IMG/VR virus record: IMGVR_UViG_3300013286_000001
Span: 1 to 64,000 of that record
DNA from: a virus
Length of the DNA: 64,000 nt
Reading direction: 5' to 3' (one strand)
Below the pieces are notes generated by a model. That model did not search any database, was not told where the DNA came from, and saw nothing but the letters and a program-made list of their open reading frames with translations. This document shows positions 1 to 25,985 of this stretch, one piece after another. The first letter of the stretch is position 1, and each line of letters starts with the position of its first letter. Position numbers and translations under genes: made by a program.

Positions 1-1364
1 ACGCCAGTCAAGCCGTTAATCATATCACAAACAAGTTGGTGGAAGTCTAGTGTTGGGTCAGCACGGAAAGCAGCTCGTACAGCTTCGGCGCCTGGCCCTA
101 CAGCGAAGTGCGCAAGAATTCGGTACTCAATAGACGATAAGTCAAGCGACTTCCAAGTTTCGTTATACTCTGGAACAAAAGCGCCCCTAATACGTGCGCC
201 AAGCTTTGTACGAATAGGAATGTTTTGTAGGTTTGGATCGCTTGAGCTAAAGCGCCCGCTTACTGTACCACCACCTTCAGACTTTAGTTGTCGAAAAGTA
301 CAGTGTAATCGCCCGTTAACGTTTTTGTTGAGAATATACCCCTCAACAAAAGTTGACCGCATTTTGATAAGCTCTTTGAGCTCAGTAATATGCGACGCTA
401 AGCTATGTGTTTGCGTCTTCATAAATGTGGCAGTAAACGACGGATTACCAACTTCTGTTGTCGGATATTCATAGCCAAATTTATCAAAAGCTTTTGCCAG
501 GTCTTGGCCTGAGTTAACGTTTACTGCAAAACCGCATTGTGCTCGAAGCTCCATTGTTTTAATAGCTGCTTGTTCTTCAAGTTCATCACGCAGTTTATTG
601 GCGTATGGCAAGTCGACTCTAACACCGCGAAACCGCATCGCAATCATAAGTGGTATTAGCTTGCATTCCATTTGGAATACGTCCATCAGGCCTTCACGCA
701 GTAGTATTGGCCATTGCCGCTGCAAAATGGCAAGAGGCAAAGTTGCATCTGACTCGGCGTATGGGCCAGCTAACTCAATAGGGCAACGATACATATTTGC
801 TCGTTGAGTGCCGTTAGGCGCTCCGCCATAGGCATCAGCTAACCACTTGTACATGCCGTTAGATTCTTTACCTTCACCCATATACTTTTGGCCAAGCGCT
901 TCGAGATTTTGCCGAGCAGTCTCGTCAATAAGCGCTTCAGCAAAGCCGCAATCGTATAACATTCCTTTTACAAAAACGCCTTCAGACTGCAAAAAACCAA
1001 CATCATAGGTAAGGTTAAGACCTACCTTTACTTGGTGCGGTCGGCTAAGCTCTTTTTGTGCCCAAGCTAATACGGCTTCGCGGTTCATGTTACCGCCAAG
1101 TATGTGCTTAAACGGAAAATATCCTTTATAACCACAGTCGGTGGCAACAGATATCCCGATTAGGTGGGAAACGCCTCGCGCCCAGCCCGGCCCAGCTTCC
1201 AGCAGTTGTGGGTCATAACCTTCAACGTCAACCGCAATTGCTTTTGCTTGACTAAGATCAGGAAAATATGATGGTACTTTCCAGCCGGTGTCAGGTATAG
1301 GCGGCATTGGCCGCTTAACTGGTTTGATTACTTTTTCATCATTAACCCAAAAAAGACTAGACAT
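1..1364 (-). CDS. DNA polymerase, family A, with 3'-5' exonuclease domain (partial)
   Basis: Replicative phage DNA polymerase of the Pol I (family A) type. About 454 N-terminal residues are present; the gene runs off the left edge, so the palm and fingers C-terminus are missing. Seen: an exonuclease I motif with Asp46 and Glu48 (AVDVEG), exonuclease II with Asn117 and Asp121 (GLNLTYD), a TVSGRFSSSDPNLQNIP block typical of family A, and polymerase motif A near residue 415 (SLDYSSIEYR, equivalent to DYSQIELR). The start ATG lies 1 nt after the stop of the upstream clamp-like gene, so the two are probably co-transcribed. The exonuclease metal ligands look intact, suggesting a proofreading enzyme. 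Confidence 0.95.
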   Translation of the reverse strand, partial: MSSLFWVNDEKVIKPVKRPMPPIPDTGWKVPSYFPDLSQAKAIAVDVEGYDPQLLEAGPGWARGVSHLIGISVATDCGYKGYFPFKHILGGNMNREAVLAWAQKELSRPHQVKVGLNLTYDVGFLQSEGVFVKGMLYDCGFAEALIDETARQNLEALGQKYMGEGKESNGMYKWLADAYGGAPNGTQRANMYRCPIELAGPYAESDATLPLAILQRQWPILLREGLMDVFQMECKLIPLMIAMRFRGVRVDLPYANKLRDELEEQAAIKTMELRAQCGFAVNVNSGQDLAKAFDKFGYEYPTTEVGNPSFTATFMKTQTHSLASHITELKELIKMRSTFVEGYILNKNVNGRLHCTFRQLKSEGGGTVSGRFSSSDPNLQNIPIRTKLGARIRGAFVPEYNETWKSLDLSSIEYRILAHFAVGPGAEAVRAAFRADPTLDFHQLVCDMINGLTG

Positions 1365-1365
1365 A

Positions 1366-2346
1366 TTACCCCTTGGCCCTAGCCGCAATTACAATTGTGC
1401 GGTCCGGATAACGGACAATTGCAAAGCGCTCTTTAAAAGCAATATCAGCACCTGCCCCAATAAACTGCCACATATGGTTTAATGATGTAGCAAAGTTAAT
1501 TGGTATCCAGCTACCTTCAAATTTTGCATACGCGCCTGTTTCACCGAATTGGAATTTAGCTTCATTGGGGGCAATGAATTCTACACGAACTCCGTCGGCT
1601 TCGGCAGCGTACGGCTTAACTTGCTCTAAAAATTCAACCAGTTCTTGGTCGACCGGCACCATGTCTTCTGCCAAGAAAAAGTCAGATACATCAGGCCATG
1701 GCTCGGCGTAAACAGGGCTAGACAGTCGTGAGCCGTCTGCAAATGTGATATACAAAACGTAACCGTCAAACGCCATAGTAGCCATTGGCTTTGCAAGTTT
1801 TGCTAGCACGGCTACAAGCGCTTTTGGTAGCGCACAAGTAAACGGTAGCTGTACAGCTAAACGCTGACGAACAATGTAACTGCCGTTAGTAGCATAAGCA
1901 AACTGGCCCTTAAGCAACAGACTTGTCGCCCAGATTCTTGGCGCCTCGTTGGGAATAAATTTCACAAGTTCTTTCATGACTGTTATCAAGCCGTCAGGTA
2001 CTTGAACAAAGTCAGTTGACGGAGTTGGCTCAGGAAGAATCGACTCTTTATCGAGCTGAAGCCAAGTCTTAATTTTACCTGACGTAAGCGTCAGACGCGT
2101 GTCGCTTATTGACAGCTTTGAGGTAGCTGTAGCTGCTTTTAACAATGAGTCTGCTTTAACGCAAAATTCTGGAAAGCTTGTAGGCACCGGTGTAGAAAGC
2201 AAAACGTTACGGTAGTAGGAATATAACCGACCGCTTTTGCTAAACGCCAACGAAGCCAAGCCGTCTTCGCCGCCTGTAATAGGCCGAACCCGTTGAATTA
2301 ATGCCTTTAGGTCGATAGACCCATCAGCTGGTTTTGCTTTTGCCAT
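1366..2346 (-). CDS. Putative DNA sliding clamp (beta-clamp-like)
   Basis: 326 residues, close to the length of bacterial DnaN proteins. Three domain-like segments of about 105 residues can be traced, each with amphipathic strand and helix patterns (LLKAATATSKLSISDTRLTL; an ATNGSYIVRQRL stretch resembling the DnaN ATDGHRLA motif; YAKFEGSWIPIN). It sits directly upstream of the polymerase, where a processivity factor is expected. Family membership is inferred from length, repeat pattern and context, not from a search. The start has a good ribosome site (TGGAGG, 5 nt). A terminator and AT-rich promoter-like DNA separate it from the upstream synthase gene. Confidence 0.55.
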   Translation of the reverse strand: MAKAKPADGSIDLKALIQRVRPITGGEDGLASLAFSKSGRLYSYYRNVLLSTPVPTSFPEFCVKADSLLKAATATSKLSISDTRLTLTSGKIKTWLQLDKESILPEPTPSTDFVQVPDGLITVMKELVKFIPNEAPRIWATSLLLKGQFAYATNGSYIVRQRLAVQLPFTCALPKALVAVLAKLAKPMATMAFDGYVLYITFADGSRLSSPVYAEPWPDVSDFFLAEDMVPVDQELVEFLEQVKPYAAEADGVRVEFIAPNEAKFQFGETGAYAKFEGSWIPINFATSLNHMWQFIGAGADIAFKERFAIVRYPDRTIVIAARAKG

Positions 2347-2389
2347 TTAAACCTCCATTGAGCATCCACAATTATAACGCGTATAATAG

Positions 2390-2420
2390 GTAAAAGAAAG
2401 CCGTAACTTTAGCTACGGCT
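2390..2420 (-). terminator. Rho-independent terminator after the dCMP/dUMP synthase gene
   Basis: On the minus strand a perfect 7-bp stem (AGCCGTA/TACGGCT) with an 8-nt loop is followed by TTTCTTTT. It lies 15 nt beyond the stop of the synthase gene. Confidence 0.8.
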
Positions 2421-2434
2421 CGCTGGTGCTGACG

Positions 2435-3274
2435 TTAAACTGCCATTTCAAACTTCATACTTGGGCCACGATCAAAAGGCTCAATTACAAAGTCTTCCGG
2501 CTCAATAGTGTAAATTCCAATAATGCCTTCCGGCTGTTTCCAATGCCACTGCGGCAAAGGACGCGCTACAGCTGTTGAAAGAATTTCTTCAGCACCCTTG
2601 TAATGGGTGGCATAAATATGCGTGTCAGCAAAATTGCCGCGAAGCTCTCGAGGTTTTTTACCGAGGTGACGGCAGATAGCTGCCTGCAAAAAACCGTACG
2701 CAGCCATGTCTGCTGGGCAGCCAAGAACCCAGTCAACTGACCGCATATTGAACAACAGGTCAAGGTCTTCGCCATCAATAAAGATTTGGAAGCTATAATG
2801 ACACGGCGGAAGAACGGCTTTATGCTGGTCACTTGGGTCCCAAGAAGTAACCAGCAAGCGCCGAGAAGTCGGATTTGCTTCAGCTTCATGCAGCAAGCTA
2901 GTCAGCTGATCAACGCCATGGAAGTTGCGCCATTTACTGCCGTAAATTGGGCCAAGGTCAAGGTTGTCTGGTGTGCCATTTTTTTCGTTTGCCGCAAGCA
3001 AGTTGGCTTCCCACCAAAAACACTTTCGTTTTTCAAACTCAGTAATGTCTGTAAAGCCGTTGATAAAGCAGATCATTTCGCCGATTGGCCCAGCCGAGCC
3101 AAAGACCCTGTGGGTCATAAGCGGAAAACCATCGCGCCAGTCATGGACAAGCTCAGTGCCAAAAAGAGCAGTAGTACCTACTCCAGTCCGGTCGGAACGC
3201 GGTGTGCCGTTAAGCAAAATGCGTTCCATAATAGCTAAATAACTGTGTTCGTATTTACTAAAAATTGTTTGCAT
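2435..3274 (-). CDS. Thymidylate-synthase-fold enzyme, predicted dCMP (hydroxy)methyltransferase
   Basis: 279 residues aligning along their length with ThyA. The folate/nucleotide fold and catalytic Cys158 (LPPCHYSFQ), Arg178-Ser179, Asp181 and the DTHIY motif (His219, Tyr221) are present. The residue matching ThyA Asn177, which recognises the uracil ring of dUMP, is Asp189 (GCPADMA), and the preceding motif is NMRS, not the YQRS of ThyA. Both features match phage T4 dCMP hydroxymethylase (NMRS, Asp179). Inference: the substrate is dCMP, giving 5-hydroxymethyl- or 5-methyl-dCMP, not dTMP. The MazG-like gene directly upstream could supply dCMP by hydrolysing dCTP. Ribosome site AAGGAG. An ordinary thymidylate synthase is the alternative. 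Confidence 0.85.
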   Translation of the reverse strand: MQTIFSKYEHSYLAIMERILLNGTPRSDRTGVGTTALFGTELVHDWRDGFPLMTHRVFGSAGPIGEMICFINGFTDITEFEKRKCFWWEANLLAANEKNGTPDNLDLGPIYGSKWRNFHGVDQLTSLLHEAEANPTSRRLLVTSWDPSDQHKAVLPPCHYSFQIFIDGEDLDLLFNMRSVDWVLGCPADMAAYGFLQAAICRHLGKKPRELRGNFADTHIYATHYKGAEEILSTAVARPLPQWHWKQPEGIIGIYTIEPEDFVIEPFDRGPSMKFEMAV

Positions 3275-3283
3275 AATTGCTCC

Positions 3284-3823
3284 TTAAATACCGTTGGCTA
3301 TGTGCCATTCGTTAGCGCTTTGGCTTGGGTTAATTTTGGCTGCGTTAAGCGCATCATCAAGAAACGGAGGAACCCAACCTGCCGGCTTAATAATGTCGTA
3401 CTTGTTGCCATATTTGGAGGTTGATTCGTTACCACGCTCTTTACGCATGTTGGCGGCATGGACTTCATCCCACAAGGCCTGAAGCGGAAACATATGGTAC
3501 TTCCGCACCAAAATAGCGAAATAGCCTTTGAGAACGTCTTTAGACAAATTGATGTGGTCAGTCAAACCGCCATCTTTGTCACCAAGCAAATGTGTGGTAC
3601 CAGCTGCAATATAGATGATGTCAATAACAGCGTCAGCAGTATCCCGCATTGTGCCAAAGCCGCTATCAATGGATTCGGCTAGCTCATCAAATTCCTCGTC
3701 TTGCCGCTTAATACGTAAATCAGCTTGAGCAAAATCATGAAGCGGATTAACACTGATACCAAACTTTGCATGAAAGTCAGCAACGTCGGAAACGCATTTT
3801 TCAAAGCTAAAAGTGGAGTTCAT
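3284..3823 (-). CDS. MazG-like nucleotide pyrophosphohydrolase
   Basis: 179 residues with the all-alpha NTP pyrophosphatase signature: an acidic helix QDEEFDELAE (Glu43, Glu44, Glu47) and a second helix with Asp64 and Asp68 (DTADAVIDIIYIA), followed by the WDEVHAANMRK motif of the MazG/HisE-like group. Such enzymes convert dNTPs or ppGpp-like nucleotides to monophosphates. It ends 9 nt before the dCMP-type synthase, so both are probably translated from one message. The pairing is analogous to T4 dCTPase plus dCMP hydroxymethylase, which suggests dCTP as a substrate, although the sequence alone does not fix the base. Confidence 0.75.
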   Translation of the reverse strand: MNSTFSFEKCVSDVADFHAKFGISVNPLHDFAQADLRIKRQDEEFDELAESIDSGFGTMRDTADAVIDIIYIAAGTTHLLGDKDGGLTDHINLSKDVLKGYFAILVRKYHMFPLQALWDEVHAANMRKERGNESTSKYGNKYDIIKPAGWVPPFLDDALNAAKINPSQSANEWHIANGI

Positions 3824-3938
3824 TGGAAATCCTTAATAGTCGAATTTATATAGTACAGCTATTAATTGCGTATAGGAAATAGCTGTTTGTTATTAGCAAA
3901 CGTTTACATATAGCCAATTTTACTTTATTGGAGGCAAG

Positions 3939-3967
3939 AAAAAGCCCCGAAAGAATCGGGGCTTTTT
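3939..3967 (-). terminator. Strong rho-independent terminator
   Basis: AAAAAGCCCCGA/TCGGGGCTTTTT forms a GC-rich stem with T runs on both sides. On the minus strand it ends the 161-residue gene; it could also work on the plus strand. Confidence 0.9.
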
Positions 3968-3979
3968 ATGTAGCTAAGC

Positions 3980-4465
3980 TTATTCAGCGTTAGCTGGATC
4001 GACTTCAGGAGCAGCTTCACCGGCCTGGAACTTGGCTTCTTCGGCTTCCAGTTCGGCCAGTTTGGCAGTATCGGACTCAATGCGCTTTTTCAGAGCAGCA
4101 ATGCGTTCAACACGCTTGTCGGCGGAGTCAACCAAACGCTGAGCAGCTTTTTCTTCACGCTCTTTGCGCTTGGCAGCTTGCGCTTCGGCTTTTTCGGTGT
4201 TGACGCGGCGTGACAGTTCCAGACCGGTAGCCTTACGGAAGTAAGTGATTTGGCTGTTAATCGACGGCTTGGACATGGTAGTGTTGGCAGCGGCCGTTTC
4301 GACGACGTAAGTGCTGGACTCGCCGTTGGCTACTGCGTGTTGGCACAGGTCCCAAACGTAACGAGCGCCGGTACCTTTACCAGGGAACGCAACAACAACG
4401 CCGTTGACTTCAACGTTTTCTTTCTGAGGACGCAGGTTTTCTACTGGGGTTTGAATCTCGGTCAT
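3980..4465 (-). CDS. Uncharacterised early protein with C-terminal coiled coil
   Basis: 161 residues, not recognised. Residues about 25-85 look globular (IINSQITYFRK-type helix, KATGLELSRRVN); residues about 88-145 are rich in Lys, Glu, Arg and Ala with heptad spacing, so probably a coiled coil; the tail is acidic. It has its own strong promoter (TTTACA-17-CATAAT) and strong terminator, so it is probably highly expressed as a single gene. The SK..I.SQ.TYFRK..G stretch resembles the SKGVVSSYLCYWRKDRG stretch of the minus-strand gene at 34562-35131, so the two may be related. A nucleic-acid-binding role is possible but unproven. Confidence 0.8.
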   Translation of the reverse strand: MTEIQTPVENLRPQKENVEVNGVVVAFPGKGTGARYVWDLCQHAVANGESSTYVVETAAANTTMSKPSINSQITYFRKATGLELSRRVNTEKAEAQAAKRKEREEKAAQRLVDSADKRVERIAALKKRIESDTAKLAELEAEEAKFQAGEAAPEVDPANAE

Positions 4466-8279: not shown

Positions 8280-8491
8280 TATCGTCTACTCGGCTTATTG
8301 CGCTCTTCTTTGCCTTTACAAAAGGCACACAGCGTGCAGCCAGGAATAGCAAGCCGTCTTGCTTGAGGAATTGGTGTGTCGCACTCTTTGCAATCTTCTG
8401 CACTAATGCCTTCATACACAACTCGATTTGCTAAAGTTGCGTTTAACAATACTTCTTGATAACCGCTTGCTACATCTACGTCGTCAGCCAT
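8279..8491 (-). CDS. DksA/TraR-type C4 zinc finger protein
   Basis: 70 residues ending in C-x2-C-x17-C-x2-C (CKECDTPIPQ...CTLCAFC), the DksA/TraR zinc finger. Such small phage proteins bind the RNA polymerase secondary channel. The N-terminal coiled coil of true DksA is absent, as in other short phage versions. It overlaps the deaminase gene by 8 nt. Confidence 0.85.
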   Translation of the reverse strand: MADDVDVASGYQEVLLNATLANRVVYEGISAEDCKECDTPIPQARRLAIPGCTLCAFCKGKEERNKPSRR

Positions 8492-8897
8492 TGTATTCTA
8501 CCTTTATACCGTTTGAGATTAAGTGTTTAATTGCTTCTTGCTGTGCTTCGGCCCAACGGCCTGGATTACCCACAGGTGGCATTACTACTTCTGCGACCCG
8601 CTTGCTCGCCACAATTGCTGCTGCGCAAGCCAGGCACGGCTGACTGGTAACGAACAGTGTTAGGCCAGAGCCTTCAGAGTTTTGAAGGGCATTGACTTCC
8701 GCATGAATAACCATAAACGTTGAACTTTCATTATTTAGCGTATCGTCATTATACTCTGGTGGAGGACCATTGTAACCTGCCCCGTTAAGTTTTCTTTTGC
8801 TAGTTACTACAACTGCGCCTACTTTACGTTCTTGCTTTGACCATTCGCCGACTTGACTGGCTAGCTGCATAAAGCGGTCATGCCATTTTTGTTCCAA
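8484..8897 (-). CDS. dCMP deaminase
   Basis: 137 residues with the zinc-dependent deaminase motifs His65-Ala-Glu67 (HAEVNA) and Pro87-Cys88-x2-Cys91 (PCLACA). It converts dCMP to dUMP, feeding host thymidylate synthesis and regulating the dCTP pool. TTG start with a GGAG ribosome site 8 nt upstream. In a phage that also carries a dCMP-type methyltransferase, this enzyme competes for the same substrate, as in T4. Confidence 0.92.
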   Translation of the reverse strand: MEQKWHDRFMQLASQVGEWSKQERKVGAVVVTSKRKLNGAGYNGPPPEYNDDTLNNESSTFMVIHAEVNALQNSEGSGLTLFVTSQPCLACAAAIVASKRVAEVVMPPVGNPGRWAEAQQEAIKHLISNGIKVEYNG

Positions 8898-10710: not shown

Positions 10711-11097
10711 TCAGTTGGTTTCGACTTCCGGCGCTTTAGTGATCTTGACCTGAGGACTGCCTGGCGAAGTAGTAATGGCTTCAAGAGCTGCTTCAAGATC
10801 ATCGCCAGTTAGTGCTTTAAGACCTGTTGCGCTGATAGTATAGCTGACTTTGAAAACGCCGGCAAATTTTTCTTTGCCAAGCTTTTCTCGTGCGTCAGCC
10901 AATGAAGGCTCAAACACCTTGACATTTTCAGTATTGGTGAACGACAGTTTATAGCCATCCATCGCAACGGTCTTTGAGCCTTTCTTTGTATGACCCGAGC
11001 GCGCAAGTAGCTCAAGCCGCGCATTAAGCTCAAGCTCTTTAATCTGCTCAAGCGACTTTTTAATGGCTTCCCACTTTGGAACAGTCATTCCGCTCAT
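10711..11097 (-). CDS. Uncharacterised replication-region protein
   Basis: 128 residues, not recognised. A predicted helical N-terminus (WEAIKKSLEQIKELELNARLELLAR) is followed by a strand-rich core and an acidic tail. It overlaps the lipoprotein gene by 4 nt and precedes the Sak4-like ATPase. A GC-rich CCCAG/CTGGG hairpin lies just after its stop. Phage Sak4 regions often hold a small partner protein here; the function is unknown. Confidence 0.75.
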   Translation of the reverse strand: MSGMTVPKWEAIKKSLEQIKELELNARLELLARSGHTKKGSKTVAMDGYKLSFTNTENVKVFEPSLADAREKLGKEKFAGVFKVSYTISATGLKALTGDDLEAALEAITTSPGSPQVKITKAPEVETN

Positions 11098-11531
11098 TGT
11101 TTTACTCCTGGCGTAACAGCGTCAATCAAAGCGTCTGAACTGCCTTTAACACGGATGTCCGGCAGAATTGTTTGAGGCTTGAACTCAACGCGATAGTGGT
11201 AAACGCTTACGTCAGCACCATACAGCTGTTCGCTGAAGTAGGTCACATTATCTGACAAACCAAGCGAATGCTTTTTATACTCCTTGGGCCCAACTTTACA
11301 AGTAACGTCCAACTTGCGCGCGCTACTTGCGTCAAACGCACAACGGCCTTCAATTGACAGCATATAGCCACCAGTGATTCCATTGTATAAAACGATGCGC
11401 CGTGTAATTTCAAAGTTGTCGGCTGCAGCAGACAGGTTGCGTGAAGCAATATCTGCGTCACGGCCACAACCAGAAAGTACACTTGCAGAAAGAGCAAGTA
11501 ACCCAACTGTTTTAAGCAATTTGATTTTCAT
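11094..11531 (-). CDS. Putative secreted lipoprotein
   Basis: 145 residues with a lipoprotein signal peptide: KIKLLK, a hydrophobic stretch (TVGLLALSASVL) and the lipobox LSGC (Cys22). The mature part is predicted strand-rich with two further cysteines. The export signal predicts attachment to a membrane, unusual inside a DNA-replication cluster. It has its own promoter. A role such as superinfection exclusion is an inference. Confidence 0.8.
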   Translation of the reverse strand: MKIKLLKTVGLLALSASVLSGCGRDADIASRNLSAAADNFEITRRIVLYNGITGGYMLSIEGRCAFDASSARKLDVTCKVGPKEYKKHSLGLSDNVTYFSEQLYGADVSVYHYRVEFKPQTILPDIRVKGSSDALIDAVTPGVKQ

Positions 11532-15192: not shown

Positions 15193-15221
15193 ATCATAAA
15201 CCCTTTCTAGATTTTTGTAAA
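15193..15221 (-). promoter_or_regulatory. Leftward early promoter beside the candidate origin
   Basis: Minus strand TTTACA, 17 bp, TATGAT. Two direct copies of AAACCCTTTC overlap the element, which could be regulator sites. Drives the first leftward genes. Confidence 0.8.
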
Positions 15222-15250
15222 CCCTTTCGCGCGCTATATAGAAGGACGGT

Positions 15251-15261
15251 AACCCACAGTG
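15251..15261 (-). repeat. Dispersed near-palindrome copy upstream of the leftward promoter
   Basis: CACTGTGGGTT on the minus strand, about 30 bp upstream of the -35 box at 15216-15221. Confidence 0.65.
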
Positions 15262-15329
15262 ATAGGCCATGAGGCTCAAGGGATGAAACAAGCTGTTTTA
15301 CACCCTCTTACGTTACTTTATAACTACTA

Positions 15330-16048
15330 GATGCAAATGCTCGCATCGATGCGCATCAGGCTATCCGCGTAATCTTATGGAGCCTGAATTCGTCTAGCTA
15401 GCAACCAACGCTGATTCACGGCGATGCGTCCTATTTTAGCAAACTAGCCTGATGCAAAATCCGCATCTGTTTTGCATCTGTTTTGCATCAGGTAAAGCGC
15501 ATAAAAGCTATTAAGCAGATTTATTTAAACTAACAACTTGGATCAGTGACTTTAAACCTTCTTTCTGGCTTATTTTGGTTTGAGATTTGCATCAGCTGAC
15601 TCTTGCATCAGGCCTCGCATCTGTCTAAGCCCTTGTTTTATAAGGCTTTTTAGTCTCCTGATGCAAAGATGCGCGTCAGGCAGGGTGCCCTATATTTGCT
15701 AGGGTGTGTAAGTCCATATAGGCCTGTCTATATATTTTTAATTTTTAAAAAATATATACAGCTATAGGCTATTGGTAGTAAGTAGACGGACAAATGGAGA
15801 CTTACACACTAGCTGATAGCAGGTAGGGCTAGGCCGCATCCGCCTAGGCCATCCGCATCTGCATCAGGCCGCATCACCTGCATAAAGCTAAACGCACAGA
15901 ATTTAGACCAAAGGTAATGAGATCAAGCACTTAGGCTCCGTGCAGCACAGATGCAAACTAGATGCATCTGGTGCGTTAGGCTACGCAACAAAAGGTGTAC
16001 TTCGCCTAGCATTTGCTATATGATGCGAGAGTTACGAGGATTTGCATC
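15330..16048. other. Candidate replication origin: 23 GCATC/GATGC repeats around an AT-rich core
   Basis: The non-coding stretch 15222-16127 separates leftward from rightward transcription. It holds 23 copies of GCATC or GATGC in 719 bp, where about 1.4 would be expected by chance. Many sit in the longer form TTTGCATCAG or its complement, for example at 15451, 15463, 15474, 15485, 15589, 15605, 16044. At 15728-15759 lies a nearly pure A/T tract with dyad symmetry (TATATATTTTT/AAAAATATATA), like a DNA-unwinding element. Iteron-like repeats plus an AT-rich core at a divergence point fit an origin; a large enhancer or packaging site is the alternative. No gene is visible inside. Confidence 0.7.
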
Positions 16049-16101
16049 AGCTAAAATTCGAGCAAATCTGACCGGAATAGTCTAAAGAGTCGCGTTGCCG
16101 A

Positions 16102-16113
16102 CCACTGTGGGTA
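16102..16113 (+). repeat. Dispersed near-palindrome CCACTGTGGGTA upstream of the rightward promoter
   Basis: Exact copy ending 14 bp before the -35 box at 16128. Confidence 0.7.
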
Positions 16114-16127
16114 TCTATAGATAAAGA

Positions 16128-16156
16128 TTTACTAAAGAAGTTTTGCGCTATATAAT
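16128..16156 (+). promoter_or_regulatory. Rightward early promoter beside the candidate origin
   Basis: TTTACT, 17 bp, TATAAT; the first rightward gene starts 29 nt after the -10 box. Mirrors the leftward promoter on the other side of the repeat region. Confidence 0.85.
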
Positions 16157-16184
16157 TAAACGTCTTATAAATAAGGAATAAATA

Positions 16185-16778
16185 ATGCTACCAGTATACT
16201 TTTGTTACGCCATCAAATTAAACAGCACAGAAGAACTTCGACCTACTAGCGAGAAAGGCTGGTTTACTACTTTGGCAAGAAAAGGAGAAAAGCAGTCTAC
16301 TACGCGTTGGAAAATTGATTTGACGGGTATTAAGCTATTTGTTTCTGAGCAAACAGCTTATAGAGCTTTACGCTCAACGTCTAAGCCTGAATCAGCTAAG
16401 TACGGCTATACGCAAGAAGAATACGAAAGTCTTTTTAGCATTACTAAAGTGTTAGTAAGTAAAGAGCTGTATGAAAGTACAGCAGAAACTGTTGCAAAGC
16501 TCAAAAAGCAAAATGAGGCAAGAGCCTCGTCGCGCAAGTCTAAAACTACAACAATTTCTGCTGTTAATAAGAAGAACGACTTGCTGGAGGGGGTAGAACT
16601 AAGCACGGTGTTTAGCGCTATCGTTCGCACTGACAAGGGCCGCATATCTGTAAAACGTTTCAGAACACCTGAAGCGGCATTACGAGAGCTCATGAAAAAA
16701 GTAGACCTAAGCTATTTAACGCTAGTTAGGATCATTTCAGAGACGATTATAAAAGCGCCTACCTCATTGCTGAAGTAA
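16185..16778 (+). CDS. Uncharacterised protein encoded next to the candidate origin
   Basis: 197 residues, basic, not recognised. An N-terminal strand-rich part (PVYFCYAIKL, KGWFTTLARK, TRWKIDLTGIKLF) is followed by a Lys/Arg/Ser-rich linker (about 105-125) and a helical C-terminal domain (KRFRTPEAALRELMKK). First rightward gene after the repeat-rich region, with its own promoter. Position and basic charge would fit an origin- or DNA-binding protein, but no motif confirms this. Confidence 0.8.
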   Translation: MLPVYFCYAIKLNSTEELRPTSEKGWFTTLARKGEKQSTTRWKIDLTGIKLFVSEQTAYRALRSTSKPESAKYGYTQEEYESLFSITKVLVSKELYESTAETVAKLKKQNEARASSRKSKTTTISAVNKKNDLLEGVELSTVFSAIVRTDKGRISVKRFRTPEAALRELMKKVDLSYLTLVRIISETIIKAPTSLLK

Positions 16779-16796
16779 GCGCCATTGGCATAGCTG

Positions 16797-17057
16797 TTAC
16801 ATTTGGCCAGCTATCATATTGGCTCGACGCATGAAGTACTGTAGCTTGTCAAGATCAGTATCAATGGCGTATATCAAAATACCTTTGATGCTAATTACGT
16901 AACAATGTTTTGTAGCAATGGTGTACGACGGGAAGTCTTTAGAATCTGCAATATCCACTATTACAGATTGCGCAAGAGTAACTTGCTCCAGCGCAGCTTT
17001 ATGCATCTCAATGGCTACGTAATAGCCAATTTGCTCAACTTTATTTAGGTCTTTCAT
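16797..17057 (-). CDS. Small uncharacterised minus-strand protein
   Basis: 86 residues, not recognised; strand-rich middle (YTIATKHCYVISIKGILIYAI). Convergent with the upstream gene, no clear terminator between them. Shares its message with the 53-residue gene to its right and has the same AGGAAATACCAAA-type ribosome site. Confidence 0.7.
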   Translation of the reverse strand: MKDLNKVEQIGYYVAIEMHKAALEQVTLAQSVIVDIADSKDFPSYTIATKHCYVISIKGILIYAIDTDLDKLQYFMRRANMIAGQM

Positions 17058-17073
17058 TTTGGTATTTCCTTAC

Positions 17074-17235
17074 TTAAACAGCAATATAACGAAACTTTTG
17101 ATTGGCGATATTGGATTGCAATTCACGCTCTAAAAGCATTTTAGCAACACCTTCAGTCGTAGCGCTATACAGATTGTGCCAAATACCTTCAGCTTCAACA
17201 AATACTTGGACGTAAAAAGCAGCTTTAGTTTTCAT
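17074..17235 (-). CDS. Small uncharacterised minus-strand protein (53 residues)
   Basis: MKTKAAFYVQVFVEAEGIWH at the start, then a helix. Good ribosome site (AAAGGAAATACAAA) and a strong promoter directly upstream. First gene of a two-gene minus-strand unit running against its neighbours. Not recognised. Confidence 0.7.
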   Translation of the reverse strand: MKTKAAFYVQVFVEAEGIWHNLYSATTEGVAKMLLERELQSNIANQKFRYIAV

Positions 17236-17278
17236 TTTGTATTTCCTTTAGTAAGTGTGTTTGCTTGTTGATGTATCT

Positions 17279-17307
17279 ACTATAAGGTAGTCGGCAGCTG
17301 TTGTACA
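17279..17307 (-). promoter_or_regulatory. Promoter for the 53- and 86-residue minus genes
   Basis: Minus strand TGTACA, 17 bp, TATAGTAGATACATCAA. The same extended pattern (TATAATAGATACATCAA) occurs at 21076-21104. Confidence 0.8.
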
Positions 17308-17326
17308 CTTTTATTAACCACTTTAT

Positions 17327-17376
17327 CAATTGATTGTTCTAATCCCTTAGCCGATAGCCATGCGAACAATCAATTG
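17327..17376. promoter_or_regulatory. Operator-like inverted repeat between divergent promoters
   Basis: CAATTGATTGTTC at 17327-17339 and its exact complement GAACAATCAATTG at 17364-17376 form a 13-bp inverted repeat with a 24-bp spacer. The right arm reaches into the -35 box of the rightward promoter. A related palindrome is at 21153-21164. Confidence 0.65.
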
Positions 17377-17403
17377 TCCGCTGCAAGCCGCAACTGCTAT
17401 AAT
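17374..17403 (+). promoter_or_regulatory. Promoter for the 76-residue gene
   Basis: TTGTCC, 18 bp, TATAAT. The -35 box overlaps the inverted repeat, so it is probably controlled by a regulator. Confidence 0.65.
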
Positions 17404-17429
17404 GAACGTACAAACAACGGAGACATCAA

Positions 17430-17660
17430 ATGAACATTTTTGAAATTAACCAGGCTATCATTGATGCTTCCATCCCAAGCTACGGTGTGGAGACTGAACA
17501 AGACAACGGCGCTCTTGATGTTGTATACCTTGCAGACTACGAAGCTCAGCTGATGGATGGCATGATCTTTTTGAATGATAGCTGCACTGATAACGACATT
17601 GCTGAGTTTGCGGATATTGAGTCGCTTATTGCGCACTTGAAGAACATTATCAAGCTGTGA
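17430..17660 (+). CDS. Small acidic early protein
   Basis: 76 residues, acidic, not recognised. GGAG ribosome site and its own promoter. Single gene between two regulated promoters; strongly acidic small phage proteins are often host-takeover or anti-defence proteins, but there is no direct evidence here. Confidence 0.75.
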   Translation: MNIFEINQAIIDASIPSYGVETEQDNGALDVVYLADYEAQLMDGMIFLNDSCTDNDIAEFADIESLIAHLKNIIKL

Positions 17661-17688
17661 GCCAACTGCACAGCCACGGCGCTGCATG

Positions 17689-17700
17689 CCACTGTGGGTT
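17689..17700 (+). repeat. Dispersed near-palindrome CCACTGTGGGTT upstream of a promoter
   Basis: One mismatch to the 12-bp consensus; 14 bp before the -35 box at 17715. Confidence 0.65.
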
Positions 17701-17714
17701 GATAGCAAATAAAG

Positions 17715-17743
17715 TGTACAAAGCCAATCAGCTGCAGTACAAT
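17715..17743 (+). promoter_or_regulatory. Promoter for the DUF7448-like gene
   Basis: TGTACA, 17 bp, TACAAT, followed by AGACAT. Matches the shared promoter form. Confidence 0.8.
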
Positions 17744-17780
17744 AGACATTCACTAACTTATATTATTAAAAGGAACGGCC

Positions 17781-18197
17781 ATGAACTTTTCAGACCTTGT
17801 AGGCTTGACGTTGCGCGCAATTGAAGGCGCAGAAGCTGGCAGTGAAGAAATTACACTTTATGCCGACAATGGTAGCAGTTTTAAAATGTATCACGACCAA
17901 AACTGTTGCGAGTCAGTAAACGTTAACGATGTAGAAGGCGACATTGCTGACTTGATTGGCAAACCTTTGGTGCTAGCAGAAGAGGCTAGCAATGAAGGAG
18001 ACGAAAGCAGCTATGGCTCGAGCACATAGACATTTTATCGCCTAGCAACAGCTAAAGGCTTTGTGGTATTTCGCTGGTTTGGCGAGTCTAATGGCTATTA
18101 TAGCGAAGAGGTAAGCTTTAGAAAAAATAAACTAAACGTTTACACGCTCAGTGTTTGTTGGTACAATAGACACATACCAACGAACATCGAGGAATGA
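17781..18197 (+). pseudogene. DUF7448-like gene interrupted by an in-frame amber codon
   Basis: The frame opens with 82 residues (SSFKMYHDQNCCESVNVNDV, DIADLIGKPLVLAEE) typical of DUF7448 phage proteins. A TAG at 18027-18029 then interrupts. The same frame continues past it with [20 protein letters not shown] and [10 protein letters not shown], the rest of the family domain, where relatives have TWTFY; TGG has apparently become TAG. The downstream part is still well conserved, so the lesion is recent, suppressed, or a sequencing error. The family function is unknown. The open frame runs to 18197, into the next promoter; the recognisable domain ends near 18123. Confidence 0.7.
18139..18167 (+). 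promoter_or_regulatory. Promoter for the small-gene run at 18.2 kb
   Basis: TTTACA, 17 bp, TACAAT, followed by AGACACAT. Confidence 0.8.
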
Positions 18198-18200
18198 ATC

Positions 18201-18329
18201 ATGACTATTGAGCGCAAAATCAAACTGCTGGAAGCCCAGTACGCTGCTATGACTGTTAACACTAAGCTGCGCGACAAAGTGGCTTTGATTGCACAAATTC
18301 GTGATCTTCAATCCCAGCTGGAAGCCTAA
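18201..18329 (+). CDS. Tiny helical protein (42 residues)
   Basis: MTIERKIKLLEAQYAAMT then a second charged helix; Leu/Ala heptads suggest a short coiled coil. GAGG ribosome site and an adjacent promoter. Not recognised. First of four small genes packed end to end. Confidence 0.65.
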   Translation: MTIERKIKLLEAQYAAMTVNTKLRDKVALIAQIRDLQSQLEA

Positions 18330-18331
18330 TC

Positions 18332-18475
18332 ATGTACTATCAAGCCACTGCTACTGTAAACGGTCAGCTGTTTGAATCTGGCTTCTACCACGAAGGCCGT
18401 GACTGGGCTATCCGCATGCTAGTACGCCAAATCGGTTTTGAAAACCTTTCACTGATTACTGTTGAGGTGATGTAA
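18332..18475 (+). CDS. Tiny protein (47 residues)
   Basis: A strand-rich start (YYQATATVNGQLFESGFY) and a helix (DWAIRMLVRQIG). Starts 2 nt after the upstream stop, and its stop touches the next ATG. Not recognised. Confidence 0.65.
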   Translation: MYYQATATVNGQLFESGFYHEGRDWAIRMLVRQIGFENLSLITVEVM

Positions 18476-18634
18476 ATGACAGACTATGACTTTAACACTG
18501 TAGAAAAGCGTCGAGCTTTTTACATTGCCAACTACGGCAGCATTCGCCAATGGGCCTTGTTTCGTGTAGCCACTTGCTGGCGGCTTCGCAAACGCTTGCC
18601 ACGACTTACTGCTAAAGCAAACAGCTTGGCATGA
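18476..18634 (+). CDS. Tiny basic protein (52 residues)
   Basis: Helical, Arg-rich (WALFRVATCWRLRKRLPRL). Starts at the base after the upstream stop. May bind nucleic acid because of its charge; not recognised. Confidence 0.65.
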   Translation: MTDYDFNTVEKRRAFYIANYGSIRQWALFRVATCWRLRKRLPRLTAKANSLA

Positions 18635-18653
18635 TCATTCCTGGAGAAAAGCA

Positions 18654-18929
18654 ATGACTATGCGATACGTAACCAACAACCAACTTTATCAAAACGGTGA
18701 AAGCGTTGACCATTCGGCGTGGTGGCTTGCTGTCTATTTGCTTCGAGTCGAATTGGCACAGCTTAAAAGCCAAGACTTTACATTGCTTTTGTACGTAGCT
18801 GACAACATTTGCCCTGAGCAGTATGTCGAGCCAGTCTACCTCATGCTACGCAGTTCTCACTTCGAGTCGGTCGCCTGGGCATTGGACCAACTCGAAATTC
18901 CAAAAGAAGAATTTCTTAAAGCGGTGTAA
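18654..18929 (+). CDS. Small uncharacterised protein (91 residues)
   Basis: Contains helical stretches (WWLAVYLLRVELAQL, YVEPVYLMLRSS). GGAG ribosome site. Last gene of the 18.2 kb unit. Not recognised. Confidence 0.7.
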   Translation: MTMRYVTNNQLYQNGESVDHSAWWLAVYLLRVELAQLKSQDFTLLLYVADNICPEQYVEPVYLMLRSSHFESVAWALDQLEIPKEEFLKAV

Positions 18930-18936
18930 ATAGCTG

Positions 18937-18966
18937 TTTACGAGCAGCTAAGCATTGCGCTACAAT
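18937..18966 (+). promoter_or_regulatory. Promoter before the broken gene at 19.0 kb
   Basis: TTTACG, 18 bp, TACAAT. Confidence 0.7.
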
Positions 18967-18996
18967 CAAAGCTTCTAACTTACTAAAGGTGTCAGC

Positions 18997-19366
18997 ATGA
19001 AAGTCTACGCAATCCGCCACACTCCAACCGGTTTGTTCATGCCAGTACCCACAGGTAAGAACGGCAGTGGCTCATCCTATTGGGACCCGCTTGAAGACAG
19101 CCATAACCCTCAAATCACCAAAACGCCGGTTGATGGCGTAGCTGTTTACGGCACACCGCTGCCTCGGCTGTTTCCACTTCGTCGATCAGCAAGCTCAGCC
19201 TTGACACAATGGCTGCGTGGTCGGCATGTTTCAATAACTAGCGGCTGTTCTCCGTGCGTAGCCGTTAGCTACGCACGGAGATGAATTGGTGCGCGTAGAC
19301 ATTGTGCCAGACCCATCGCGCAAAGCTGACGACATGAAATTGTTGCGTTTGAACTTGTGGGGGTGA
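18997..19366 (+). pseudogene. Small phage gene broken by a frameshift at a long hairpin
   Basis: The start (MKVYAIRHTPTGLFMPVPTG, then PRLFPLRRSASSALTQWLRG) resembles a common small phage family that ends in a VP.P.RKADDM.LLRL motif. Here the first frame ends at 19284 after unrelated residues. The expected end (DELVRVDIVPDPSRKADDMK, LLRLNLW) appears in another frame up to 19366. The break coincides with a perfect 14-bp hairpin at 19249-19281, suggesting an insertion or template-switch event. The 370-nt span is not a multiple of three. Confidence 0.6.
19249..19281. repeat. Perfect 14-bp inverted repeat with 5-nt loop
   Basis: TCTCCGTGCGTAGC and its exact complement, separated by CGTTA. It lies at the frameshift of the gene around it. 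Confidence 0.9.
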
Positions 19367-19370
19367 AGTA

Positions 19371-19550
19371 ATGGCCATTGCAAAAGTAGCTGAACCTGAA
19401 GTAATTGTACTTACGCTTAGCTTGTCTGCGGCCGAAGCTAAAGAGCTCAAAGCTGTAACTCAAAATCAATTTACTGCGGCTGACGAAGCAGTAGAACTCC
19501 GGGAAGTTCGTCATGCAATTTGGCATGCGCTTAATTTGGCTGGAGTGTAA
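19371..19550 (+). CDS. Small helical protein (59 residues)
   Basis: Acidic Ala/Glu-rich helix pair (LSLSAAEAKELKAVTQNQ, VRHAIWHALNLAGV). Not recognised. Starts 4 nt after the end of the broken gene upstream. Confidence 0.65.
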   Translation: MAIAKVAEPEVIVLTLSLSAAEAKELKAVTQNQFTAADEAVELREVRHAIWHALNLAGV

Positions 19551-19758
19551 TATAAACATCCTGGACCAGCAACAAATTGAGGCAAGCGCTTACCACGTAG
19601 CGTTGTGCGCTCAACTTATTAGTTTACAAGCTCGCTACGATGTGCTAATCTGTTATGCGCTTAATGTAGACTTTCAGCTCGAAGCGCATATAACGCTTAA
19701 ACAGATTGAAGCTATCCAGAAAGCAATCGACGAAAATGCAAAGGCACAACTGAAATGA
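19513..19758 (+). CDS. Small helical protein (up to 81 residues)
   Basis: Helical (LDQQQIEASAYHVALCAQLI, TLKQIEAIQKAIDENAKAQ). The only ATG lies inside the upstream gene, and there is no clear ribosome site near the conserved-looking part, so the true start is uncertain. Not recognised. Confidence 0.5.
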   Translation: MQFGMRLIWLECNINILDQQQIEASAYHVALCAQLISLQARYDVLICYALNVDFQLEAHITLKQIEAIQKAIDENAKAQLK

Positions 19759-19851
19759 CAACTAAACTAACTGACAGTCCAGCTTTTGCCCGACCAAAAA
19801 GCCCTAAAGGCTGAAATCGAAATCGCTAAAATGAACCTGGAGAAAAAGTAA
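19755..19851 (+). pseudogene. Tiny gene with a one-base frameshift
   Basis: From the ATG (MTTKLTDS) one extra C in GTCC shifts the frame. Removing it gives MTTKLTDSQLLPDQKALK and a charged helix ending EKK just before the next ATG. The 97-nt length is one over a multiple of three. Confidence 0.4.
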
Positions 19852-20114
19852 TGATTGTTGATTTTGATTTTAGCAGAGGCCCACACAAACCTTTACGTAC
19901 AAAACAAGAATCAGCTGAGGAAACAGTAATGACTTTTAAACATGAAGATCGTTATATTATTATCAAGTTGAAAAACCTTACTGAGGACCAACTTGACTCG
20001 CTTGAAACACGAATGGACAACTAAGAAATTGTTCCTCTTGAAAACTGTCTTATAATCGAAGACGATTGGCCCAAGTACGCTTGGGTGTCATTGAGGAGCG
20101 TTCAAAATGACTGA
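19851..20114 (+). pseudogene. Small gene interrupted by an in-frame ochre codon
   Basis: The first part contains MTFKHEDRYIIIKLKNLTED, resembling small phage proteins that start this way and continue to a DDWP motif. A TAA at 20022-20024 interrupts it, but the same frame continues with PLENCLIIEDDWPKYAWVSL, the expected C-terminus. A start at 19929 (GAGG ribosome site) is also likely. Probably a nonsense mutation. Confidence 0.55.
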
Positions 20115-20382
20115 ACAAGTAATGGGCCGTATCCACCACACAAAAAATTGGTATAATCTGCGCGCTTAATAGCGTTGGCCAACAACTACGTGACGATACC
20201 AAACTTTACGAGCATCCAGCTGAACACAAAGAAACTGACGCTAAGTCTCGAACCGCTTGGATTGCAGTTGTGCTGCAAAAATATCCAACTGCTGAAATAG
20301 GGTAGTAGGTACACTGGCAACAGCAGCCTACAACGGTATTCAAGTCGGCACTTGGCTCCCATATGCGTGGACTGTAAAATGA
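20107..20382 (+). pseudogene. Small gene with at least two frameshifts
   Basis: Three pieces in different frames read as one protein: MTEQVMGRIHHTKNWYNLRA, then VGQQLRDDTKLYEHPAEHKE with TAWIAVVLQKYPTAEI after it, then VGTLATAAYNGIQVGTWLPY. One extra base near 20167 and two near 20298 would explain the breaks. Only the joined product looks like a coherent protein. Not recognised. Confidence 0.6.
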
Positions 20383-20522
20383 ACAGTTACCGAATGAGCT
20401 TTACATCATACACCGATGCGTGTGACTACGCAGATAAACTGAAAAGACAAGGCTCAAGTACTCAATTGATGGCTCTTGTTCGGTCAAGCGAGGGCTGGGA
20501 TGTAACTTGGCGAATGCCTTAG
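20379..20522 (+). CDS. Tiny protein (47 residues)
   Basis: A helix (YTDACDYADKLKRQG) and a C-terminal strand pair (ALVRSSEGWDVTWRMP). Its ATG overlaps the stop of the broken gene. Not recognised. Confidence 0.6.
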   Translation: MNSYRMSFTSYTDACDYADKLKRQGSSTQLMALVRSSEGWDVTWRMP

Positions 20523-20532
20523 GAGAACTGTA

Positions 20533-20787
20533 ATGAGCAAAATATGCTGGAGTTGTGAACGAACTGGAGAAGGCGGATTTTTGGTTGTAGCACAAAAAGT
20601 GCTACCACTCGGCCGTGTGTATAAGGCTGGCTTTACAACTGTTAAAAGGGATTTTAGCTGCTTTACTATTCGGCAACAGCGGTTTTACTTGTTTACAGTT
20701 ATTGAAGCGCTAACTAACTATATGGAAGCAGCTGTTGAAGACGGACCAATAAGCTATGTAGCTGTTAGCGCAAAAGTTGCGCAATAA
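20533..20787 (+). CDS. Small uncharacterised protein (84 residues)
   Basis: N-terminal C-x2-C (ICWSCERTGEGGF) may form half of a metal site; no second pair. Preceded by GGAG and followed by a terminator. Not recognised. Confidence 0.7.
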   Translation: MSKICWSCERTGEGGFLVVAQKVLPLGRVYKAGFTTVKRDFSCFTIRQQRFYLFTVIEALTNYMEAAVEDGPISYVAVSAKVAQ

Positions 20788-20789
20788 AC

Positions 20790-20817
20790 AAAGCCCTCAA
20801 CTAAGAGGGCTTATTTG
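20790..20817 (+). terminator. Rho-independent terminator
   Basis: AAGCCCTC/GAGGGCTT stem with a 6-nt loop, then TATTTG. Ends the 18.9-20.8 kb run. Confidence 0.75.
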
Positions 20818-20820
20818 TCG

Positions 20821-20832
20821 CCCACTGTGGGC
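20821..20832. repeat. Dispersed near-palindrome copy (CCCACTGTGGGC)
   Basis: Perfect arms GCCCAC/GTGGGC around the centre when read as CCCAC-T-GTGGG. It overlaps the last base of the convergent gene's stop and follows the terminator. Confidence 0.65.
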
Positions 20833-21029
20833 TAGGTGTAAGCAATCTCGTCAAACTCGTCAGCAGTAAGAGCTTGGCGAGCAGCTTTAATAATTGCTGC
20901 AAACTCAACTTGCTCTTTAGCCGTGAACAAGTCGCCAAAGTCAGTGATGTCGTCATCCATGTGGAAGAAACGGCCTTCAATGTTCAAGCGAGCTACAAAA
21001 GCTTTGAAGTTGTTGGCTGCAGTAGTCAT
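20832..21029 (-). CDS. Small acidic minus-strand protein
   Basis: 65 residues (RFFHMDDDITDFGDLFTAKE), acidic, not recognised. Runs against its neighbours, with its own promoter of the TATAATAGATACATC type, like the minus gene at 17.1-17.2 kb. Both minus genes lie opposite promoters carrying the CAATTGATTG palindrome, so they may share a regulator. Confidence 0.7.
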   Translation of the reverse strand: MTTAANNFKAFVARLNIEGRFFHMDDDITDFGDLFTAKEQVEFAAIIKAARQALTADEFDEIAYT

Positions 21030-21075
21030 TTATTTAATTCCTTAAGTAAGTTGTTTGTTTCGTCTTGATGTATCT

Positions 21076-21104
21076 ATTATACGCGCTGGGCAAAGGGCTG
21101 TACA
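21076..21104 (-). promoter_or_regulatory. Promoter for the 65-residue minus gene
   Basis: Minus strand TGTACA, 17 bp, TATAAT, followed by AGATACATCAA; near-identical to the promoter at 17279-17307. Confidence 0.85.
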
Positions 21105-21152
21105 CGTTTATTTTCACATGGTTTCTTATTGGTTAACAGCCACTTGATATGG

Positions 21153-21190
21153 ACAATTGATTGTGCGTGCTTGCCAGCTGTTGGCATAAT
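21153..21190 (+). promoter_or_regulatory. Promoter with overlapping ACAATTGATTGT operator
   Basis: The palindrome ACAATTGATTGT (21153-21164) overlaps the -35 box TTGTGC (21161-21166); 18 bp further is CATAAT (21185-21190). Same arrangement as at 17364-17403. Confidence 0.65.
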
Positions 21191-21224
21191 TAACTCATCG
21201 AAACGAACAACGGAGCAAGACAAG

Positions 21225-21428
21225 ATGCGACATAACACATATTTGCTATTTATTTGTGACGGAGTTCAGTGCGAAATAGCTGACAATATACTTTACCGCA
21301 ATGGAATTCGCATAGGTCGGTTTATTACTACAGTTTCAGTTTTACCACTAAAAAAGCTAAAACTTAAAAATGCGCGAATTGTAAAACCAAACAAAGGCCC
21401 ATTATCAAAGCAAAAATGGCTACAATAA
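21225..21428 (+). CDS. Small basic protein (67 residues)
   Basis: Start chosen for the CGGAGCAAGACAAG ribosome site. Strand-rich N-terminus (LLFICDGVQCEIADNILYRN) and a Lys-rich tail. Not recognised. Confidence 0.65.
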   Translation: MRHNTYLLFICDGVQCEIADNILYRNGIRIGRFITTVSVLPLKKLKLKNARIVKPNKGPLSKQKWLQ

Positions 21429-21469
21429 ATGCTGAAGGCTTTGTTAACACAACTAAACGGAGATTGATC

Positions 21470-21673
21470 ATGCAACTCAAATTTATTAAAGACATTTTTG
21501 AACCCGGCTTTACCGAGCTAACAGTTAGCAAAAAGTATGAAGCTTACTCGGCTGTAACTGACGACGGATTTTACGTCATTACTGATGACGGTACACCCCA
21601 TTATTTTACAAGCCTTAATGCAGGCCCTCAGCCGGACGGCTTTGATACAAACGATTGCTGGGAGCGTGTATGA
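21470..21673 (+). CDS. Small protein (67 residues)
   Basis: Start has GGAG 7 nt upstream. Strand-rich (YEAYSAVTDDGFYVITDDGT), like a small beta-barrel; phage proteins of this general form occur widely without assigned function. Overlaps the next ATG (TATGA). Confidence 0.7.
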   Translation: MQLKFIKDIFEPGFTELTVSKKYEAYSAVTDDGFYVITDDGTPHYFTSLNAGPQPDGFDTNDCWERV

Positions 21674-21927
21674 GCCAGCTTGCCAAAGACATTATTGAAG
21701 CAATGCAGCGCCAAGCTGTTGAAAAGCAACGGCCTTGTATTGTCAGCCTTGAAGGCTATGAGTTTCGCTGTACGCCAAAGCGTGTCGGTCCGCCTGAAAC
21801 CTTTTTTCTTGTTAATGGCTGTTACTTTGCAGAAGGCGACGTCAAACGTTTTGTGGCTACTTTTGCTAAGTCAAAACCAATCGCAGCTACTGCTGTTTTG
21901 AATGCTTTAAAAGCTGTAGAAAGCTGA
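21670..21927 (+). CDS. Small protein (85 residues)
   Basis: Coupled to the previous gene by ATGA. A helix (KDIIEAMQRQAVEKQ), strands (CIVSLEGYEFRCTPKRVG) and a C-terminal helix. Not recognised. Confidence 0.7.
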   Translation: MSQLAKDIIEAMQRQAVEKQRPCIVSLEGYEFRCTPKRVGPPETFFLVNGCYFAEGDVKRFVATFAKSKPIAATAVLNALKAVES

Positions 21928-22091
21928 GGCTTCCAGAAGGTTCTCGTCGCCAGTAAGCTTCATGGCGGAGTTTTGCCTTGCAGGCCTAGTAAAATGTATA
22001 GGACACGGTCCGGACGCCTCTACGGAGGACAGGGACACGTAGCATTAAACTTTCAAAGGCCGTTTCAGGCCATTAATTTATAGGTGATTGT
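21928..22091. other. 164-nt gap with possible structured RNA
   Basis: No credible frame. GC-richer than its surroundings, with short dyads: GTCCGGAC, CCTC-TAC-GGAGG, and a pair of GGACACG blocks at 21999 and 22031. No promoter of the shared type was recognised. It could be a small structured RNA or 5' leader for the gene at 22092; no known class was recognised. Confidence 0.3.
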
Positions 22092-22594: not shown

Positions 22595-22728
22595 TGTGGC
22601 CTATTTACATTTTCATAGCAATGGGTGTATTATCTACCTGTGGCATATTACTATTTGCAGCAGACATGTTGCGTTATGCCTTTACGGGTAAAACCTTTTT
22701 GTTGAGGAAAAACAATGGCAAGCATTGA
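22594..22728 (+). CDS. Tiny membrane protein (44 residues)
   Basis: One hydrophobic segment (PIYIFIAMGVLSTCGILLFA) followed by a basic tail (RKNNGKH), predicted single-pass inner-membrane peptide. TGATG overlap with the upstream gene. It overlaps the start of the broken gene downstream. Confidence 0.6.
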   Translation: MWPIYIFIAMGVLSTCGILLFAADMLRYAFTGKTFLLRKNNGKH

Positions 22729-25984: not shown

Positions 25985-25985
25985 G

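Follow-up and report, generated by a model that had tools for sequence, protein, structure and literature searches.

The closest precedent for the enzyme analysed here is provided by the Xp12-type phages. Xp12 DNA contains 100% 5-methylcytosine (5mC), and its relative DLP4, used here as a stand-in for Xp12, carries a MazG-TS-deaminase-DHFR cassette in which the thymidylate synthase (TS) homologue has Asp at the position of E. coli Asn177; the gene is annotated 'thymidylate synthase' (15766-16707 of L008, AXL1/Xp12 group). In the AXL1 paper the TS homologue was assigned the conversion of dUMP to dTMP, and the mechanism of cytosine modification was called unknown. According to work cited in PMC8670742, exchange of Asn177 for Asp turns TS from dUMP to dCMP and yields 5-methyl-dCMP, and the structural reason for the Asp versus Asn specificity is given in PMC6400193 and PMC5175136. 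In a physical selection of phage contigs with modified cytosine (MetaGPA, PMC8670742), Asp177 dominates the TS genes, which co-occur with PRA-PH and dCMP deaminase, and position 147 was ranked together with position 177. Two hydroxymethylases, T4 gp42 and the CMP hydroxymethylase MilA, likewise have Asp at the cytosine position. Hydroxymethylases are marked by Asp/Glu at the third position ahead of the catalytic Cys (Cys-3) together with Ser/Thr at the second position ahead of the Tyr (Tyr-2), a signature of which the first residue is essential in T4, where D145N alone abolishes formation of 5-hydroxymethyl-dCMP (PMC6400193). Hydroxymethylases also lack the C-terminal tail with which TS closes its active site so that hydride can be transferred.

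Here we describe a TS homologue encoded in a window of 64,000 nucleotides that represents most of a 65,006-base IMG/VR virus record (IMGVR_UViG_3300013286_000001). Several features are common to the window and to Xp12 with its relatives in the Bradleyvirinae (DLP4 and AXL1): a TS fold with Asp177, a gene for a MazG-like protein immediately before TS, genes for dCMP deaminase and a Cas4-type protein, a genome of ~64 kb and a predicted 5-methyl-dCMP product. The Xp12-type enzyme, however, is only 25% identical to that of the window and has Pro147, Asn at Cys-3 and a longer insert, and the Xp12 type carries a DHFR gene, whereas the window does not. In trees the DLP4 protein forms a very long branch near the window clade, a placement with weak support. 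The window enzyme is predicted to work like the Xp12 dCMP methylase but, as judged from sequence comparison, appears to represent a separate TS branch whose active site is of ThyA type. The MetaGPA contigs resemble the window in Asp177 and in the co-occurrence with PRA-PH and dCMP deaminase, all three genes being present in the window; in the modified MetaGPA set position 147 is also changed, whereas the window enzyme keeps His147, and no carbamoyltransferase was found in the window.

A ThyA-type protein with Asp at position 177

The TS gene of the window (Table 1) encodes 279 residues from an ATG start. The protein matches PF00303 (E=6.9e-60) and the thymidylate synthase family PHROG 160 (E=8e-74), and its AlphaFold model (mean pLDDT 93.3) has E. 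coli and human TS as the nearest solved structures (TM 0.87-0.93). The catalytic set that had been assigned on first inspection (Cys158, Arg178-Ser179, Asp181 and a DTHIY motif) was located at the expected positions, and alignment further places E66, Y111, R138, H159, D189, H219 and Y221. Fold and residues (E58, Y94, R126′, C146, R166, S167, D169, H207 and Y209 in E. coli numbering) assign the protein to the TS superfamily. The motif pattern is found a single time in the window, and none of 100 shuffles contains it. The residue that defines a dUMP-specific ThyA, Asn177, is replaced by Asp189, which aligns with N177 of E. coli ThyA, the Asp of DLP4 and Asp179 of T4 gp42, as the initial annotation had proposed. 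The protein clears the curated cut-off of TIGR03284 and fails those of PRK01827, neither of which probes the residue at position 177, and the concern that such genes are easily misnamed thymidylate synthase is borne out.

Table 1. Coordinates of the features discussed (window positions unless a record is named)
Feature	Position	Strand	Basis and remarks
ThyA-fold protein with Asp177 (E. coli numbering); predicted dCMP methylase forming 5-methyl-dCMP	2435..3274	minus	ORF, family profiles, alignment, structure model
Asp189 codon (= E. coli Asn177, T4 gp42 Asp179), pyrimidine-specificity residue	2708..2710	minus	alignment; role of position: PMC8670742, PMC6400193
Catalytic Cys158 codon (= E. coli Cys146)	2801..2803	minus	alignment
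Leu155 codon, Cys-3; Asp/Glu here in hydroxymethylases	2810..2812	minus	alignment, PMC6400193
C-terminal tail of TS type, the final five residues being FEMAV; T4 gp42 has none	2438..2452	minus	sequence comparison
MazG/PRA-PH-like nucleotide pyrophosphohydrolase, candidate dCTPase (dCTP to dCMP)	3284..3823	minus	9 nt upstream of TS gene
Clamp-like DNA polymerase processivity factor; gene directly follows TS	1366..2346	minus	PHROG 947, E=2e-27
Polymerase-A-like DNA polymerase, N-terminal two thirds (about 670 aa)	1..1364	minus	sequence motifs; rest beyond 64244, across record ends
dCMP deaminase-like protein	8484..8897	minus	PF00383, E=3e-17; PHROG 174, E=2.6e-29
Asp177 td genes, annotated thymidylate synthase (phages 133, ZZ1, SP18, VR7, CJ20, YenM_P8)	L263 101-1048, L258 101-1033, L264 12066-12926, L267-L269 51-911		

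Two related virus records encode the same gene, L002 (91% identity) and L093 (60% identity). The CPADM motif is kept in all three, with GAC, GAT and GAC as the Asp codons of the window, L002 and L093, respectively, and comparison of the window with L002 gives a dN/dS of 0.097 for the TS gene. The retention of Asp in both relatives, the synonymous codon change and the low dN/dS indicate that Asp189 is maintained by selection and is no sequencing error. The NMRS sequence is indeed common to the window protein and T4 gp42. Its Met (E. coli Gln165) is found in 18 of 115 Asp-type and 1 of 107 Asn-type proteins among the matches listed, where most Asp-type proteins read QRS; NMRS was therefore dropped as a required mark of the Asp177 type and is kept as a weak correlate.

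Predicted preference for a cytosine nucleotide

The proposal that a cytosine nucleotide is the substrate, and with it that of cytosine-modified phage DNA, draws support from sequence, phylogeny and genomic context. Position 177 is the determinant of the pyrimidine, and we consider it very probable that the enzyme acts on dCMP rather than dUMP. MilA shares the TS fold and the Asp but prefers ribonucleotides through Ala176 and Lys133, whereas the window enzyme has Ser179 and Arg138, a deoxyribose-type pattern. The chief reservation about dCMP methylation by the window enzyme is that His147 is retained, whereas T4 gp42, the Xp12-type enzymes and the Pikmin enzyme have other residues there.

The context of Asp177 was compared across 25 Asp-type and 25 Asn-type viral contigs of at least 31 kb, taken from pattern scans among the matches listed and non-redundant by TS protein (<72% identity, apart from named references). 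In 17/25 Asp-type contigs, but 0/25 Asn-type contigs, TS has a PRA-PH gene no more than 2.5 kb away (Fisher p=2e-7, a value weakened by kinship), and such a gene occurs anywhere on the contig in 19 versus 5 of 25 (p=2e-4). Phylogenetically independent pairs follow the same trend, with only four pairs well supported. The presence of dCMP deaminase does not separate the two types significantly (10/25 Asp-type, 4/25 Asn-type, p=0.11), and palindrome avoidance, taken as a possible genomic mark of protected DNA, gave p=0.07 and 0.12 for Asp versus Asn contigs.

These data bear on the view that the protein is an ordinary thymidylate synthase in which Asp189 is tolerated, converting to dTMP the dUMP that the dCMP deaminase of the phage provides. 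The complete ThyA catalytic set, the deaminase gene in the window and the fact that the closest solved structures are TS would fit such an enzyme. However, Asn177 is the known determinant of uracil and Asp that of cytosine, and the Asp is under purifying selection and tracks both PRA-PH adjacency and, in T4-like phages (see below), the absence of gp42; a conventional dUMP enzyme is therefore quite unlikely. No second TS and no ThyX were found in the genome searched.

Methyl or hydroxymethyl product

The initial annotation had allowed for either 5-methyl- or 5-hydroxymethylcytosine. The residues that distinguish the two reactions clearly favour the former. T4 gp42 and Pikmin carry both residues of the hydroxymethylase signature and SPO1 gp29 carries the Asp, whereas the window enzyme has Leu155 at Cys-3 and Pro109 at Tyr-2, as in E. 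coli ThyA. Leu at Cys-3 is found in 115/115 Asp-type ThyA-like viral proteins among the matches listed. The C-terminus of the window enzyme (KFEMAV) retains the TS tail. As the hydroxymethylase signature is absent and the TS tail is present, 5-methyl-dCMP is predicted as the product rather than its 5-hydroxymethyl counterpart, and Asp177 combined with a missing signature is the pattern expected of a dCMP methylase with Xp12-like function. Given dCMP as substrate, these residues make methylation highly likely. The tail itself is not strictly needed for methylation, since Xp12-type enzymes, with proven 5mC, lack it. Trp80 was considered as a marker of methyl versus hydroxymethyl transfer and dropped because T4 gp42 aligns Trp at the same position.

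The same substrate could in principle be hydroxymethylated, with water attacking the methylene and the DNA carrying 5-hydroxymethylcytosine. The window enzyme shares with T4 gp42 the Asp at position 177 (Asp179), a property of dCMP hydroxymethylases, as well as NMRS and the catalytic Cys and Glu, and the MetaGPA selection recovers 5mC and 5hmC DNA alike. T4 gp42, in contrast, has Asp145 and Ser94, lacks the tail, is only 20% identical to the window protein and lies apart from it in the tree, and no glucosyl- or carbamoyltransferase was seen among the window proteins searched. A hydroxymethylase is thus unlikely, and the suggestion of a T4 gp42-like enzyme in particular is not supported.

Gene neighbourhood and a proposed route to 5mC DNA

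In the order of transcription the window encodes the MazG-like protein, TS, the clamp-like factor and the polymerase-A-like protein. The order MazG-TS-clamp is kept in L002 and L093, and in L093 the polymerase follows, its gene being intact (1320-3317). In this relative only, a GIY-YIG-like (homing-endonuclease-like) ORF (3310-4098) lies between the clamp and polymerase genes. The MazG-like protein scores 20.5 bits against PF01503 (cutoff 21.3), with its L002 and L093 homologues above the cutoff, and matches the nucleotide pyrophosphohydrolase family PHROG 671 (E=1.5e-21); it is thus a member of the PRA-PH/MazG family, and dCTP is the candidate substrate of this protein. The window also contains Cas4-type exonuclease and DNA ligase genes, and searches of the genome for DHFR, ThyX and a dTMP kinase-like protein (PF02223) that could act on 5-methyl-dCMP found none; the missing kinase counts against the route proposed below.

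The ends of the record overlap exactly by 123 nt (1-123 = 64884-65006), which makes a complete circle of 64,883 bp the most likely form of the genome. The polymerase-A-like gene spans this junction and accounts for a polymerase that otherwise seemed to be missing. Elsewhere in the window, a lipoprotein-like ORF (11094-11531; signal and LSGC) matches a PHROG named 'recombination directionality factor' (E=8e-51), a label that looks doubtful for this protein, and 15200-29300 holds a long run of small ORFs, the few of which that were searched gave no family match.

The Asp change and the position of the gene in an apparent cytosine-replacement operon suggest that it probably supplies 5mC for the phage DNA. 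In the proposed route, Asp189 would pair with and protonate the cytosine ring (N3 and amino edge), Cys158 would attack C6, and methylene-tetrahydrofolate would donate the methylene to C5. As the TS-type sealed site is kept (C-tail, Leu155 and no catalytic water site), hydride transfer from the folate would complete the methyl group, giving 5-methyl-dCMP and dihydrofolate. Hydrolysis of dCTP to dCMP would probably fall to the MazG-like enzyme encoded immediately before TS, host kinases would convert 5-methyl-dCMP to 5-methyl-dCTP, and the phage polymerase would insert the latter in place of dC, such that virion DNA would carry 5mC throughout, as in Xp12. What was observed directly is the set of residues with their conservation, the order of the genes and the associations seen in the comparisons. 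From these we infer the reaction itself, the action of the MazG-like enzyme on dCTP, the way in which the product is phosphorylated and a benefit through protection, and, by analogy, full replacement of dC in virions. A shield against restriction, as first suggested for this gene, is plausible on the same analogy. Taken as a whole, the switch from dUMP to dCMP, the 5-methyl-dCMP product, removal of dCTP by the MazG-like enzyme and 5mC throughout virion DNA form an account that we regard as likely.

The deaminase-like protein, which may act on dCMP or on 5-methyl-dCMP, allows another fate for the product, in which the phage deaminase converts 5-methyl-dCMP to dTMP and virion cytosine is normal. 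Its gene lies within the same early gene block, which would fit such a thymidine supply. The adjoining MazG-like gene, and the finding that such genes accompany Asp-type TS, suggest instead that dCTP is removed, and T4-like phages with an Asp-type td are reported to keep Alc and DenB, which act on unmodified cytosine DNA; use of 5-methyl-dCMP for thymidine alone is accordingly very unlikely. Thymidine supply and DNA modification by 5-methyl-dCMP can, however, coexist.

Recurrence of Asp177 and the td genes of T4-like phages

In trees built without position 177, the window TS is placed apart from T4 gp42, in a clade that is entirely Asp-type; it is not a gp42 orthologue. Asp/Asn changes number 3 in a tree of 18 proteins and 11 among 123 phage proteins, at least three of them forced by strongly supported branches, indicating that Asp177 arose several times in phages.

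Among T4-like phages, all six sampled with an Asp-type td (SP18, VR7, CJ20, YenM_P8, 133 and ZZ1) have no detectable gp42, whereas an Asn-type td is accompanied by gp42 in eight of eight (T4, S16, OLB35, Aeromonas 25, AM101, Acj9, Minot and PhT2); RB16 and Milchi have an Asn-type td without gp42. Of the sampled phages that lack gp42 but whose groups reportedly keep dCTPase, Alc and DenB, six of six have an Asp-type td. The association is significant among the phages sampled (Fisher p=0.007), with the PRA-PH and gp42 associations only partly independent phylogenetically. Gaprivervirus, 133 and ZZ1 are described as keeping dCTPase, Alc and DenB, and a base-modifying protein, called unknown, was suggested (PMC8056088); replication of Gaprivervirus, it was argued, would be impossible if its DNA lacked a non-canonical base, called currently unknown (PMC12115623). 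Gene 42 is listed for phage 133 in PMC2993671, but no gp42 was found in this phage, in agreement with PMC8056088.

Like the window enzyme, the Asp-type td proteins of SP18, VR7, CJ20, P8, 133 and ZZ1 are of ThyA type: they combine Asp177 and His147 with Leu at Cys-3, and their C-terminus resembles that of TS. They differ in belonging to another phage family; at least in Gaprivervirus the change from Asn to Asp occurred independently, and phage 133 has an annotated gp56-type dCTPase, versus the MazG-like gene of the window. If the Asp-type td uses dCMP, the retention of dCTPase, Alc and DenB in the absence of gp42 would be explained, and these td proteins are candidate replacements for gp42. 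We lean slightly towards the broader view that a lone Asn-to-Asp change in phage ThyA/td evolved repeatedly as a third route to 5mC, without gp42 or an Xp12-type enzyme, in a set that includes the window phage, a large virus group known from metagenomes and the cultured T4-like phages of Gaprivervirus, 133 and ZZ1, and in which dCMP deaminase may also channel 5-methyl-dCMP towards dTMP.

If this holds, many phage genes that at present bear the name thymidylate synthase would be reclassified on the strength of a single residue, and residue 177 would predict which phages carry 5mC DNA, with bearing on restriction and Cas resistance, transduction and the choice of therapy phages. It would also offer a testable answer to the published puzzle of why Gaprivervirus, 133 and ZZ1 keep genes directed against unmodified cytosine without a known modifying enzyme, and a possible mechanism for cytosine modification in the AXL1/DLP4/Xp12 group. 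Asp177 ThyA-like genes are present in at least 120 viral contigs (L011-L130), and one large clade of Asp177 viral contigs reads LPYD[IF]AMYG.
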